A stretch of DNA of 44,267 bases from positions 1 to 44,267 of the forward strand of contig CALUSB010000017.1 in the NCBI GenBank assembly GCA_944323335.1, read 5' to 3'. This document shows positions 3,459-21,669 of the stretch, piece after piece (within the stretch, counting starts at the first letter, position 1; every line of letters begins with the position of its first letter). A program made the translations under genes and the position numbers. The notes below the pieces were generated by a model. That model ran no database searches, had not been told where the DNA came from, and worked only from the letters and a program-made list of their open reading frames with translations. The DNA comes from Candidatus Gastranaerophilales bacterium. GTDB taxonomy: Bacteria > Cyanobacteriota > Vampirovibrionia > Gastranaerophilales > Gastranaerophilaceae.

Positions 3459-6400
3459 ATGAACGTAAACCCGATAGACTTTTATACAATAAAGCAAGAC
3501 AAAAGCCCGCGAAGGCCTATACCTGTTTCATTTTGTGCTAAAGACGCTTTTGAAAAGTCCCAAAGAAGCCCTTTAACGCTTAATGACAAGTCTGACCCAA
3601 TGCTTGATAAATGGGTGAGTGCTTATCTTGAGCTGCCAAATGCAACAATTGGGCAGATTGAACTTTTAAAAAACCTGTTTAAGGCTATCTCTGGTGATGA
3701 ACAATATTTTGCAAAAACTATCATAGAATATTATGATAACTCATCGCCCCAAGATATAGTAAAAGAGCTAAACAACCTTGGTTTAGATTTGCTTTCTTTG
3801 GATAAAAAAGAGCTTGAAATCTATGGTAAAAATATTGAGAATTTTTCAAAAATTTCTCTTCCGAATAATGTTGATTTAGATTATTACCCGCTCATTCCTC
3901 TTTTAGATGAAGAGCAGATTAAAAAAGTTGCTCCATATTGCGATGATTATACTCTTAGTGAATCTTTTTTTGATATGGTAAACGGGGATGAAGAGTATTT
4001 TAGAAAACTTGAATATCTAAGAAGTTTTAGCAGTAATTTAGAATCTTGTTTCAATGAAAAATTGGGCGGTCCTGTAGTTAAAGATTTGCTGCATGCTGAT
4101 GTTGATTTTGAAACGGTGAAAGCTCGCATGGAAGAGCTTTTAGGATACTACAAAGCACTTGAGGAAAAGACATTTTTGGGCTTTTATGATGCGTCAAACA
4201 GTATTAAAAATATTGCTTTGGCAACAGATGAAAAATGGGAAAAAGCAAAATATTTTATGAGTATTCAAGATTACCACAGCAATGTTGTTCCAATAGAGCT
4301 AAATAAGCTTGATGAGTTATCCGATTTAGATGAGCAACAAATGCAAAGAGCCAAACTATATATTGATTCAAGGATGCAAAATGGCGAATATATAAGCGCA
4401 TACGATATCTTAGCTCTTGCAAAACTTGATGAATCAAAATTTGAGCGTGCAATAAATTATATAGATAAAGGTGCACAAAGAGTGCCAAGTATTGTCGGTT
4501 ACTCTTCTCCGCTTTTTGTTGATGACGTTGTAAAACTTGTTAACATGGACGATAAAACCGCAGATAAACTTTTTGAAAACACTAAATTTCTTGACTGGGA
4601 TGAAAGACGCGCTTATATTGATATTTACTCTATTTCAAACACTTTTGACCTGCCGTTAGTTAAACGTATCGAGATGGCATCAAAGTTTAAGGGCGTAAGG
4701 GACAAATTTGAAATATTAAACATTAAAGACCCTTATTTTGAAAAAGCGGCACTATCTCTTGAGGCTTCTTTAATGGGTTCTGATGTTGCAATTGATGTGC
4801 CAAAGGTAAATGTTGTAAAACTGTTTCAAAAATTCTTGTCAAATGTGCCTGTAGCAGAAAGTGCAAAAGAAGGCTATGCCCCCTCTTTAACAAATTTTGA
4901 AAATGTGCTTATAGAAAATGACAGGCTTATAAGGTCATTTGGCAAAAGCGGTATACCATTGTCTTATTCAAGGGAAGAATACATAGATGACTTAAATGAG
5001 CTTACAAAGACTCTTGATAAACAAAAAAAAGAAGAAATATACTCTAAACTCGGTATAATTCCCGTTATTAAAAATGAAGAAATTACGGGTTATAACGGCC
5101 TATTAAGGCTAAATAAGTTTGATTTAAATTCTCCCCAAGAAAAAGCTGTGTATGATATAACTTATAATTTCTTGCACTCTAACAGAGTCCAAACCGGCTC
5201 AAGCGAGCTTGATGATTGCCTAAATACAATAATTTCAGCTTTTCCCGAGTTTATAAATTCAATAGGAAAACTTCAAAACCCGACACATATCTATTCAAAC
5301 GATATACACACTCTGGTTGTATTAAACAGTTGTATTTCAAATCCTATGTATAAAGAGCTTAATCCTACCTCGAGAACTTCTCTCAAGTTGATGGCGCTTT
5401 TCCATGACTTAGGTAAGGCCGACGGCGTTGTAGATAAGGGGCATCAGAATACAAGCGCTTATTATGTAAAATCTATACTCGATAAACTAAATATCGGCTC
5501 TGAAATTTCAGATAGAGTTTTTGAATTAATAAAAAACCACCACTGGTTTGAAGACTACAATACAGGCTGTTGCGAGGCTGATACTCCTGCTTTTATGTTT
5601 AGAAGACCTCAGGATTTTAAAGTTGCACAAATATTTGCCAGAGCTGATTTATTAGGCGTAGGCTCATCTCTTTTTAGTCAATACTGCGACGATTTAAACC
5701 ACTATAGGATGCAGCCTATACAAGATAAAATAGATAAAATTAATCAAAGCGGCAATGCTGTTTATTCAACAGGGGCAGTAATGCCGGCAAAAATTCCTGT
5801 CGAGAAATCATCTGACGGCAGAGAATATAAAGTGGTTAATTTTACCAAAATAAACAATGATGAAGACCTTTATCAATACGGTTTTTCAAAAGGTATAAAA
5901 AAAGATGATATAAGGCTGCTTGTTCATATGGTAGGAGAAGAAAGCGACCTAAACAAGCTTAAATACCTTGCTGACATTAATAACGCAGGGGTTCTAAGTG
6001 AGTCTTTAATAAGTCTTGATAACAAAAGAACATACTGCAACAGAAGATATGGTGTTGTGCTTAGTAATATGCCCTATAATGTGGTACAAATGTCAGGAAG
6101 CAACATTGGTTCAGGTACAAAAAAAGACTTTAAATATGCAATAAGCGCTTGCCAGAGTGATTCGGAAAGAAACAACTTTAGGGATGCATTTTTAGAAGAA
6201 TTAAATATTTTAGGTAAAGTTAGCGAAGATGAGTATAGCGAGTTTTATCTCAGGGATTTAATTTACAGAAACAAATTAACTCAATTTGGCATAAACAGAA
6301 AATACAAAATAGGGCAGTATGAATTTGACTCGGAAGAAATTAAAAAAGCCCTCTTAAATGTTATGGATGATTTTATCAGCACAGGCAAGCAAGAAGACAG

Positions 6401-6539
6401 CCATTGCGAGTTTGTTGCTTATTATCCTAAGATTGAGGCGGTAGTTGCAAAAGAGGATAAGCTTGATGATACACCGCAGTATTTAAGAGATTATGCTAAT
6501 GAGAATAATCTCCCCATTTTCTTAATCGGAAAAGATTAG
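3459..6539 (+). CDS. Large HD-domain protein, putative metal-dependent phosphohydrolase
   Basis: 1026 residues. The recognisable part is an HD module in the C-terminal half: H617 (DIHTL), H649-D650 (LFHDLGKADG), H694/H695 (NHHW) and D730 (RADLLG). These are the spaced metal ligands of HD phosphohydrolases, so hydrolysis of a phosphoester (nucleotide or nucleic-acid end) is likely. The substrate is unknown. Residues 1-600 are helical, acidic and repeat-like, with no domain I recognise. The N-terminus has no signal peptide but carries PVSFCAKDAF, an Ile/Val-x-Phe type motif also seen near the start of the M41 protein in this window. No strong Shine-Dalgarno precedes the ATG. It is transcribed away from the RM genes and followed 46 bases later by the phosphatase gene. 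Confident that it is a gene; function uncertain. Confidence 0.85.
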   Translation: MNVNPIDFYTIKQDKSPRRPIPVSFCAKDAFEKSQRSPLTLNDKSDPMLDKWVSAYLELPNATIGQIELLKNLFKAISGDEQYFAKTIIEYYDNSSPQDIVKELNNLGLDLLSLDKKELEIYGKNIENFSKISLPNNVDLDYYPLIPLLDEEQIKKVAPYCDDYTLSESFFDMVNGDEEYFRKLEYLRSFSSNLESCFNEKLGGPVVKDLLHADVDFETVKARMEELLGYYKALEEKTFLGFYDASNSIKNIALATDEKWEKAKYFMSIQDYHSNVVPIELNKLDELSDLDEQQMQRAKLYIDSRMQNGEYISAYDILALAKLDESKFERAINYIDKGAQRVPSIVGYSSPLFVDDVVKLVNMDDKTADKLFENTKFLDWDERRAYIDIYSISNTFDLPLVKRIEMASKFKGVRDKFEILNIKDPYFEKAALSLEASLMGSDVAIDVPKVNVVKLFQKFLSNVPVAESAKEGYAPSLTNFENVLIENDRLIRSFGKSGIPLSYSREEYIDDLNELTKTLDKQKKEEIYSKLGIIPVIKNEEITGYNGLLRLNKFDLNSPQEKAVYDITYNFLHSNRVQTGSSELDDCLNTIISAFPEFINSIGKLQNPTHIYSNDIHTLVVLNSCISNPMYKELNPTSRTSLKLMALFHDLGKADGVVDKGHQNTSAYYVKSILDKLNIGSEISDRVFELIKNHHWFEDYNTGCCEADTPAFMFRRPQDFKVAQIFARADLLGVGSSLFSQYCDDLNHYRMQPIQDKIDKINQSGNAVYSTGAVMPAKIPVEKSSDGREYKVVNFTKINNDEDLYQYGFSKGIKKDDIRLLVHMVGEESDLNKLKYLADINNAGVLSESLISLDNKRTYCNRRYGVVLSNMPYNVVQMSGSNIGSGTKKDFKYAISACQSDSERNNFRDAFLEELNILGKVSEDEYSEFYLRDLIYRNKLTQFGINRKYKIGQYEFDSEEIKKALLNVMDDFISTGKQEDSHCEFVAYYPKIEAVVAKEDKLDDTPQYLRDYANENNLPIFLIGKD

Positions 6540-18609: not shown

Positions 18610-21600
18610 TTATTTTTTTGCTACTTCGCCTTTTTTGGTTTTTGCAATTATATCAAGGATTTCACCCTCAAGTGCGTCAAGCTCTTTGAGTTTTTCTTCG
18701 CTTTGAGTTTTTCTCCAATCTTCAAGCATTTTATTAAATTCATCCGAGCTTATAATACAATCACCCGTTCCTACAATGTCTTTGTATTTTTCAGCAAAAA
18801 CATCAACAAAATCGCTATACGCTTCAACAATTTTATCCGAAACAATCTCGGCATTTTTGAGGAACACTTCCATATCAGAATCCATTCTGGCTTTTAGCTC
18901 TTCAGAGATATCACTTATACCCAGTTGGTTTCTCTCAACAGATATTCTTCCTGTTTTTGGCCCCATACCCATTTTCTGTACGGCAAGTTTTGCCATATGT
19001 GTAGCCATCGCCATATCTTGAGTTATGCCCCAGCTGCCATCCATGTTATAAAATCTCTTTTCGCTTGCGTGGCCTCCAAAGTTGGTTACAAGGCTTGAAA
19101 ATACTTTTTCAAAGCTCCACTGTTTGTTTTCGGAGTCTTTATGATATACAGCTCCACCATAATCGCCCCTCGGGTCAAGTGTAATAAAGTCAACTGTATC
19201 GGGCAGATGCCAAGGTTTTTCTTCTTTTTTTGCTATATCATACATAATCTGAAGTGTAAGAGCATGACCACATTCGTGTTTTGCTACAAGTTCATTATCA
19301 TGTTCAGCGCGAGCTTCTGTAGATACTCTGCCTGTTGTAACCTGTAGATAGGCTTCTGTGAAATCGGACTTATCTATTGCATCTTTTCCTCTTTCACGAG
19401 ATATGTCATCAGCTTTTTCAAGAAGATAAATTAAATCTACAACGCTGAAGTAATTAGTTGTTTCGGCAACATTTCTTATTAGCTGTTCTTTTTCTTCTTC
19501 GTTTTTGGCAGCTATTTTAAGATTATTCTTATCTATATAGTATTTAAGTATGTCGCTTCTGTCCCTTACATCCTGTGGTGAGTAGATTATAATTTTATCC
19601 AAGAATTTATAGGGTTTCATGATATTTTCATCTAAATAATCAGGATAATTTGTTGAACCTACCACTATGAGGTTAACATTTTCGTTCCTCCTTACCTGCT
19701 CCATTTCGGATAGCAGTTGAGAAAATGCCTTTTGTTCATATATTGAAGATATTCCATATAGAGGATTTGAGCCGAAGTTATCGAAGTTTTCAATTAATAT
19801 CATAGCAGTTTTGTTTTTGTTTGCTTCGGCTTGAGTTTTTGCGGTATTTATAAGTTTTTTGATTTTAATTTCAGATAAGTTGGCGTTTTGCGAGAGTGCT
19901 TCAATGTCTTTTAGGGCAAATTCTTTGGCGTCTATCATAACCATCGGTATATTTGCTTCCCCCGCAATTGCTTCAGCCGTGTGCCTTCTACCGCCGCCGT
20001 ATGAAGTTCCGTTATCAAGGAATGTTGTATAACCTCTTGTAAAGCCTTTTTTCTTCATGAGTATTTGATTTACTATACTTTGAGCTTCAGCTTTTGTCAT
20101 CGGGTTGCCTACAATATCATCAAGTTTTTTGCCTGTGTCAAAAACAACCCTAAATTCACTTTGGGATTCATCTGTTTTTTTGATGTCTGAAGTTTGTATT
20201 TCGTATTCTTGAACATCATCTGCAGTTATTTTTTCTTTATCAGAGTAAAATGCAGCAATTTTTTTCATGTATCTTAGAGCTTTTTCAGGGTAATAGCCTT
20301 CTTGCTTATCTGTTGCATTTACTATTGAATCAATAGCCTCAGGGTCAAATTCTTTTTTAATTTGTGTATCAATAAAAGCTTTGCCTGTTTCACCTTTTAG
20401 TATTTCTTTTGCATCTGAAGAATTTACCATAGGTATAGACAAAGTGTTATAGTGTTCAATATATGGTTTTACGCCTGCACCCGCTTGAGTGTTACCGTAG
20501 TATGTGTCTTTATTTGAAATAAGTACCATTCTAATGTTAGAAGGCACACCTTTTTTGCCTTTGTTTTCAAGTAATGCAAGTTCGTTTTCATCTAAATACA
20601 TTGATTCGCGTCGTTCCGCCACCGTATTTGCTTTTAGCAATTCGGCAAAATTAGCCATGAAGATATATGTTGTATCAGGGTCTTTTTTAGCTTCTTCTGC
20701 CATAGATTTTATGATATCAAAAATTGTTTTGCTGTTGAATAACACTATCTTTGTATTTTGCTCGTTTAATTTATTGTATTTTTGTCCGGGTTTTTTAATT
20801 AAATTTGTAAAGCTTGAAATTAAATGTTTGACTGATGTTTTATTGTCACCTTCATAAGTAATGTATGTATCATTGCCATGGTCTAAGCTTTTCCAGAGCT
20901 GGTCAGCTTTATCATCATAAAAATTCAAATGCGTTTTTTGTTTTTCGGGCAAACTGTCAATCATAATTTCTCTTTGCATTTCAAATTTAAAATCTTTTAA
21001 TTTACCCAAAAGTTTTCTGTCATTTGAAGACAACAACGCCACCATAAAGTTGTTATCAAGGAATTCGTCCGTCTCAGCAATTTGAGTTGTGGCAGAGTAT
21101 GCTATGTTTAGGTCTGCAATAAGTTCGTCAGTAGGCTTAGGTGTAAAGAACTTAGACTTTGGCAAGTTTGATTTTTTGATTTCCTGAGCGGTTTCTCTTA
21201 TGTATTTTTTTATGATGGGTTCGATCTTTTTTCTTGTTTCTTCGTTTTTTAATACATTAAAATCTCCAATAAATGATTCAAGGCTTTTTGCGGTCAAGTA
21301 TTGTTCTTCTTCGTCATATTTTTTAGTGCCGGAGTTTAAGCTTTCGATAAAATTGTTCAAATCTAACAACACCGCTAAAAATACGTGTTGGTGCGTGATT
21401 TTTGTGTGTCCGAATTTTTTTGTTGCATCCCCTATTTCCTTCCACATTCTGTGTGCCTCAGGGGTAAAATTTGCGCTTGCCTTTGCAAATTTTCTTTTGT
21501 TGTTTGCTTCATAGCTTCCGCCAAAGTTTATATCGTAATATGCGGCATTTATGCCGTTTAGCTCATTGAGTGAAGATTGAATATTTGTTTTAACGGGATT

Positions 21601-21669
21601 ATTTGTTGATTTAGCTTTAAAATTTTTGCCGGTATTTGCTTTCAGGCTCTCAATGCGCTCTATTTTCAT
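18610..21669 (-). CDS. M41 (FtsH-like) metalloprotease with degenerate AAA modules
   Basis: 1019 residues. The N-terminal part (about 68-105, FTPEAHRMWKEIGDATKKFGHTKITHQHVFLAVLL) resembles a Clp N-domain repeat. A first AAA-like region (about 265-490) has no Walker A. The second (about 508-770) aligns with FtsH, but its Walker A is GGGRRHTAEAIAGE with the essential Lys replaced by R561 and Thr by R562. Its Walker B is ILIENFD (E627-N628 in place of Asp-Glu), and the arginine-finger region reads KPYKFLDK in place of RPGRFDR. The M41 peptidase domain keeps the zinc motif HECGH (798-802) and the third ligand D885 (GITQD). FtsH's N-terminal transmembrane helices are absent. GAGGA precedes the ATG. 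It is probably a zinc protease with structural, non-hydrolysing AAA domains. Confidence 0.85.
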   Translation of the reverse strand: MKIERIESLKANTGKNFKAKSTNNPVKTNIQSSLNELNGINAAYYDINFGGSYEANNKRKFAKASANFTPEAHRMWKEIGDATKKFGHTKITHQHVFLAVLLDLNNFIESLNSGTKKYDEEEQYLTAKSLESFIGDFNVLKNEETRKKIEPIIKKYIRETAQEIKKSNLPKSKFFTPKPTDELIADLNIAYSATTQIAETDEFLDNNFMVALLSSNDRKLLGKLKDFKFEMQREIMIDSLPEKQKTHLNFYDDKADQLWKSLDHGNDTYITYEGDNKTSVKHLISSFTNLIKKPGQKYNKLNEQNTKIVLFNSKTIFDIIKSMAEEAKKDPDTTYIFMANFAELLKANTVAERRESMYLDENELALLENKGKKGVPSNIRMVLISNKDTYYGNTQAGAGVKPYIEHYNTLSIPMVNSSDAKEILKGETGKAFIDTQIKKEFDPEAIDSIVNATDKQEGYYPEKALRYMKKIAAFYSDKEKITADDVQEYEIQTSDIKKTDESQSEFRVVFDTGKKLDDIVGNPMTKAEAQSIVNQILMKKKGFTRGYTTFLDNGTSYGGGRRHTAEAIAGEANIPMVMIDAKEFALKDIEALSQNANLSEIKIKKLINTAKTQAEANKNKTAMILIENFDNFGSNPLYGISSIYEQKAFSQLLSEMEQVRRNENVNLIVVGSTNYPDYLDENIMKPYKFLDKIIIYSPQDVRDRSDILKYYIDKNNLKIAAKNEEEKEQLIRNVAETTNYFSVVDLIYLLEKADDISRERGKDAIDKSDFTEAYLQVTTGRVSTEARAEHDNELVAKHECGHALTLQIMYDIAKKEEKPWHLPDTVDFITLDPRGDYGGAVYHKDSENKQWSFEKVFSSLVTNFGGHASEKRFYNMDGSWGITQDMAMATHMAKLAVQKMGMGPKTGRISVERNQLGISDISEELKARMDSDMEVFLKNAEIVSDKIVEAYSDFVDVFAEKYKDIVGTGDCIISSDEFNKMLEDWRKTQSEEKLKELDALEGEILDIIAKTKKGEVAKK

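Follow-up and report, generated by a model that had tools for sequence, protein, structure and literature searches.

FtsH is an ATP-dependent membrane protease in which proteolysis is coupled to ATP. Proteolysis by known FtsH also requires the assembled oligomer (PMC9020784). The chloroplast proteins FtsHi1-5 have kept the GxGKT P-loop and lost HExxH (PMC11266112, PMC8197885). VIR3 is a plant chloroplast M41-type putative metalloprotease with no ATP-binding domain, and its zinc motif is needed for its function in planta (PMC9166295). No description of a bacterial FtsH relative with a dead ATPase and an intact protease was found in the open-licence literature.

The gene studied here lies at positions 18610-21669 on the minus strand of the window, the whole 44,267-nucleotide stretch of Candidatus Gastranaerophilales DNA that was analysed. 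It encodes a 1019-aa protein made up of an Hsp100-like head, an FtsH-like pseudo-ATPase and an M41 zinc protease, as evidenced by the ORF, the Pfam AAA and M41 matches and an alignment of 58 copies. It is best explained as a soluble, ATPase-dead M41 zinc metalloprotease which would cut without ATP and use its AAA-fold domains as a scaffold or gate (probability about 0.6).

The AAA-M41 order and fold (3kds Z 25.0) and the HExxH and Asp zinc site are shared with FtsH (TIGR01241, MEROPS M41). HExxH, the third-ligand Asp, the profile match and the fold together place the protein in MEROPS M41. It differs from FtsH in having no transmembrane anchors, Walker A Lys or Walker B Glu, in the replacement of the Arg fingers (RPGRF) and the FVG pore loop, and in its extra Clp-N-like and D1-like head. 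Like FtsHi1-5 and the Ycf2-FtsHi motor it is an FtsH relative that appears to have lost one of two activities while keeping the fold, but it is their mirror image, with HExxH retained and the P-loop Lys absent. In contrast to the FtsHi membrane proteins, the 1019-aa protein is predicted to be soluble and carries an Hsp100 head. VIR3 is a precedent for an M41-type protein functioning without an ATPase. However, VIR3 is a membrane protein with no ATP-binding domain at all, while the predicted soluble protein described here has an AAA fold which is highly constrained. The order of Clp-N-like segment and D1 AAA fold (Z about 17-18) is shared with the Hsp100/Clp proteins ClpC, ClpA, ClpB and Hsp104, but here D1 is without Walker A, and an FtsH-type AAA domain and M41 in the same chain stand where D2 and the ClpP partner would be. 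M41 and AAA proteases are already known and this is not a categorically new system.

Gene and Domain Organization

The ORF starts with ATG and is preceded by a GAGG Shine-Dalgarno-like stretch. All of its features are encoded on the minus strand. Residues 1-51 (21517-21669) form a disordered leader (pLDDT < 50) with the recurrent tag motif INFGG at its end. A Clp-N-like helical segment covers residues 60-235 (20965-21492). The single-sequence scan gave no Clp-N Pfam match and a profile was needed for detection. The profile of 40 orthologues matched ClpC N domains (E 4.2e-6) and the ClpC D1 small domain. An HMM of the Clp-N-like region had matches only in the ATPase-dead clade and in the Clp_N proteins of the same genome.

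The segment is followed by an Hsp100 D1-like AAA-fold domain (residues 236-497, 20179-20964). Residues 60-508 were folded separately with AlphaFold2 at a pLDDT of 90.8, and residues about 233-497 had the Hsp100 D1 AAA fold (Hsp104 Z 18.3, ClpC1 Z 18.0, 237-241 residues, 3.0-3.1 Å). GxxGxGK[ST] was absent from residues 236-497. By position, the missing P-loop would fall at residues 265-278 (GNDTYITYEGDNKT, 20836-20877), a stretch not conserved as a P-loop in the orthologues.

The FtsH-like AAA domain, with its ATPase motifs disabled, spans residues 512-780 (19330-20136), and Pfam AAA matched residues 558-692 (E 4.6e-12, above the cut-off). It contains the former Walker A GGGRR (558-562, 19984-19998), the former Walker B ILIENFD (624-630, 19780-19800) and the former arginine-finger segment KPYKF (685-689, 19603-19617). 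The former pore loop 1 (584-597, 19879-19920) reads FALKDIEALSQNAN where FtsH has (F/Y)VG, and pLDDT was < 50 at residues 587-593. The M41 zinc-protease domain covers residues 785-1014 (18628-19317). Peptidase_M41 (PF01434) matched residues 789-960 with an E-value of 3.9e-16 and 59.9 bits against a cut-off of 29.9. The zinc-binding motif is HECGH (798-802, 19264-19278) and the third zinc ligand is D885 (19015-19017). The best PDB sequence matches were FtsH-type proteases, while the score against the FtsH model TIGR01241 was 128.9 bits, below the cut-off of 600.

The AlphaFold2 model built from the 58 aligned copies was confident (pLDDT 83.2), with a pTM of 0.51, and the arrangement between domains is less certain than the domains themselves. 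Residues 512-984 of the model superposed on FtsH 3kds with a Z of 25.0 over 418 residues (3.6 Å), and the FtsH AAA-M41 fold is predicted to be intact. No transmembrane helix was found, with a highest 19-residue hydropathy of 1.04 compared to 2.85 in the FtsH of the same genome, and the protein is predicted to be soluble.

The original prediction for this gene had described a Clp-N-like head, a second AAA-like region lacking Walker A and an absence of FtsH transmembrane helices, and these were recovered. It had also named HECGH and D885 as retained zinc ligands, R561 in place of the Walker A Lys and ILIENFD as Walker B, and each was found in the ORF. The loss of the (F/Y)VG pore loop is an additional motor element that it did not include.

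A pattern for the N-terminal tag, [IVLP][SNP]F[GTKCS][GASN], recurs near the N-termini of unrelated proteins in this and related genomes, often preceded by a polar leader beginning M(K/R)(I/V)xxI. In this genome it had 13 matches in 266 bins of the first 75 residues compared to 7 in 876 later bins; the pattern was devised after examples had been seen, and an earlier loose pattern showed no N-terminal enrichment. The tag is carried by two proteins in the window, at 3459-6539 (plus strand) and 18610-21669 (minus strand), and further carriers occur in L116, L118, L120, L121 and L124. The tag might serve in protein targeting or sorting. The gene at 3459-6539 encodes a 1026-aa HD-domain protein (PF01966) with no other Pfam match at E 0.01.

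Conservation of Motifs and Selection

The bacterial family was searched in 191 genomes, which gave 58 full-length copies for alignment, consisting of the window protein and 57 orthologues with 28-60% identity to it. HExGH and the third-ligand Asp were invariant (58/58), as were the general-base E799 (58/58) and the LDPR and GG residues near the zinc site. G558, G560 and R561 were likewise present in 58/58, with Lys at the Walker A position in 0/58. R561 was encoded by five different Arg codons (AGA, AGG, CGT, CGA, and CGC). The following position, Ser/Thr in Walker A, was R, K, Y, T or M, with R/K/Y/M in all but one of the 58. The catalytic Glu of Walker B was replaced in every copy, by Asn (54) or Lys (4), and the position of the Mg-binding Asp held Glu (45), Asp (7) or Asn (6). 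In all ATPase-dead clade members examined, another sequence stood in place of the FtsH pore loop (F/Y)VG. Lysines had been claimed in place of the arginine fingers. This holds for the window protein, with KPYKF, but the position is variable in the family (KPNRF, KSFKF, and VRGFN).

Ten more full-length copies were aligned later. All had HExxH and the third-ligand Asp and none had the Walker A Lys. Scattered loss of HExxH in homologues, which the original prediction had named as a sign of decay, was thus absent from the 58 aligned copies and the 10 further copies.

Pairwise dN/dS of the AAA domain was 0.01-0.08 for pairs with informative dS and was mostly equal to or below that of M41. For M41 the values were about 0.03-0.13, apart from 0.32 in one very close pair with few differences. 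The leader often evolved faster than the domains. As dN/dS is low in both, purifying selection is indicated for the AAA and M41 domains, in agreement with the earlier claim of selection with the protease spared. By these estimates, constraint on the disabled AAA domain roughly equals or exceeds that on the protease domain. The alignment and dN/dS values point to fixation and maintenance of the ATPase-motif loss, not decay.

Origin and Distribution

L074 and L075, two full-length orthologues from a second family (f7), came from a profile search across the order. The same search also turned up soluble AAA-M41 proteins in other parts of the order that are more distantly related. Beyond the order, a search of the class at E 1e-60 listed no matches, and by these searches the ATPase-dead M41 family is seen in one bacterial order only.

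The closest relatives outside the ATPase-dead groups are soluble AAA-M41 proteins with an intact ATPase (L064, L066-L071, L076, L077, L079, L080, and L083-L085). They also have the protease in one chain with HExxH; a similar N-terminal leader is present in most, and a D1-like region is detectable in L076 (E 5e-20). They differ in that GTGKT, the Walker B Asp-Glu and the Arg fingers are all intact; so is the (F/Y)VG pore loop wherever it was aligned. The Clp-N-like segment was not detected in these relatives. L066-L071 and L083-L085 are about 730-780 aa in length with ATPase and protease motifs intact. By eye they have no FtsH-like anchor, and in several genomes they occur alongside other M41 proteins. 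They are unusual FtsH relatives in their own right. In a further trio, L078, L081, and L082, the Walker A Lys is still there but the Walker B Glu, Arg fingers and pore loop are not. The D1-like region was detectable in this trio also.

With the motif columns left out of the phylogenetic tree, the ATPase-dead proteins formed one clade (SH-aLRT 100) which contained all 38 members placed. On this tree the clade has a single origin among soluble AAA-M41 proteins with intact ATPase motifs. The half-degraded trio was placed as its sister with an SH-aLRT of 92, below the threshold of 95, and is likely to be so related. If this relationship holds, the pore loop, Walker B and fingers were lost first and Walker A last. 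The original prediction had spoken of losses at three independent motifs. Three motifs are indeed lost, but these need not be independent events as the 38 tree members make up one clade.

Carriers are patchy, with about 58 full-length copies in 191 genomes of the family. In G133, a species of the same genus, only a relic was present (L065, 3010-3387), in which residues 767-783 and 906-1019 are left and the M41 core is deleted. This is gene loss and not selective motif loss. The near-identical metagenome assembly L033, the sole near-identical record in the genome-wide scan, has a one-base frameshift. The gene may be dispensable in places, given the relic and the frameshift. Spread by mobile elements was considered and rejected, with none found in viral contigs and the plasmid matches shown being FtsH-like, at 24-28% identity over half of the query or less.

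Genomic Context

The genome (1.67 Mb, 49 contigs) encodes one canonical FtsH, with a 641-aa frame, besides the 1019-aa protein. Canonical FtsH was also present in 10/10 further carriers tested, in frames of 608-654 aa. Membrane FtsH was the sole other M41 protein in 10 of the 11 carrier genomes checked, this genome included. Downstream genes in the window encode an outer-membrane efflux protein, an HlyD-type protein and an ABC ATPase. An operon partner was rejected, since these efflux, HlyD and ABC neighbors are conserved only within genus g1 and the neighbors in other genera are different. Neighbor conservation in general was limited to the genus or near relatives. The genome also encodes Clp_N proteins in frames of 830 and 872 aa. 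Another locus of this genome, L131 (G000:C30:14304-15593), has a 456-aa frame with about five Clp_N matches and is apparently too short for an additional AAA domain.

Alternative Explanations

The 1019-aa protein might co-assemble with canonical FtsH or ClpC, or dock on such a ring, and the active AAA ring would supply the force, while the 1019-aa protein added protease sites or substrate specificity through its Clp-N/D1-like head. The likeness of the Clp-N-like and D1-like parts to ClpC, the Clp_N proteins of the genome (830 and 872 aa frames) and the canonical FtsH in all 11/11 carriers checked fit this arrangement, and Ycf2-FtsHi is a known AAA hetero-oligomer that includes dead subunits (PMC11266112). 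However, the protein has no transmembrane anchor for sitting in an FtsH hexamer and, with the pore loop lost, the parts for passing on a pulled chain are gone. No neighbor gene was conserved beyond the genus and membrane FtsH was the only other M41 protein in 10/11 carrier genomes checked, so that partnership of this kind is unlikely. The choice between an ATP-independent and a partner-driven protease, offered by the original prediction, is supported in its first half. The ATP-independent form is favored, since the protein has lost the pore loop that grips the substrate, no linked partner gene was seen outside the genus and membrane FtsH is the one other M41 protein in this genome. An improbable alternative is that the invariant Gly-x-Gly-Arg P-loop binds ATP, ADP or another phosphate ligand without hydrolysis and gates the protease. 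G558, G560, and R561 are invariant in the 58 copies despite the loss of the hydrolysis residues, and the AAA domain is very constrained, which fits nucleotide sensing. On the other side, all of the 58 copies but one carry R/K/Y/M at the Walker A Ser/Thr, most carry E or N at the Walker B Asp, and the Lys of the pocket has become Arg. Weaker Mg-nucleotide binding is expected from these replacements, and structural constraint alone could account for the invariance.

Protease activity is itself read from the sequence, and pseudo-enzymes are known among AAA-M41 proteins (FtsHi). The protein could then be a scaffold or chaperone-like pseudo-enzyme with a merely structural zinc site. This is very improbable, as the general base E799 is invariant along with the ligands (58/58) and the nearby LDPR and GG are invariant also. 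A decaying pseudogene or an assembly artefact is hardly credible. The one-base frameshift in L033 and the relic in G133 are what such an explanation can draw on, but 58 open frames were aligned, full-length copies occur in two bacterial families, and low dN/dS and invariant motifs refute it for the family.

Proposed Mechanism and Significance

The preferred reading is an ATP-independent zinc protease. The ancestor would have been a cytosolic FtsH-like AAA protease which lost ATP hydrolysis and substrate threading and retained the zinc protease. The protein probably binds zinc and cleaves protein, and probably does not hydrolyze ATP, judging from the motifs kept and lost. The FtsH-like AAA domain, with R561 in its P-loop, and the Hsp100 D1-like domain would be non-motor structures acting as an oligomerization scaffold, a gate and/or a platform for substrates or adaptors. 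We infer an oligomeric state in which the two AAA-fold domains have a structural role as ring scaffold or gate. The Clp-N-like head would be the likely site at which substrates or adaptors are recruited. Since FtsH is oligomer- and ATP-dependent, an unpowered M41 domain would be limited to segments that are flexible or unfolded. Its substrates would be few, namely proteins that are unfolded, flexible or docked specifically, and these would be cut without ATP beside the normal membrane FtsH. For the same reason, that FtsH proteolysis is oligomer-dependent and coupled to ATP, the protease here may be inactive when it has no motor. G558-x-G560-R561 is under strong constraint, which could reflect continued nucleotide binding and would then make the protein ATP-gated rather than ATP-indifferent.

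We tentatively suggest, with the odds somewhat against it, that these proteins form an undescribed class of bacterial AAA-fold protease. Such a class would combine Hsp100 and FtsH parts in a chimera, its live M41 domain topped by a stack of two AAA-fold domains that are not motors. The protease would work without ATP, and docking, or a ligand bound in the Gly-x-Gly-Arg pocket, would control its activity. A lineage in which the protease was kept and the motor discarded would be a natural experiment on the roles of the AAA ring beyond ATP use, and would bear on whether M41 domains can work unpowered. It would complete the symmetry with chloroplast FtsHi, a motor without the blade. Together, the order's ATPase-intact and half-degraded relatives would provide a stepwise series for the order in which the motor elements were lost.
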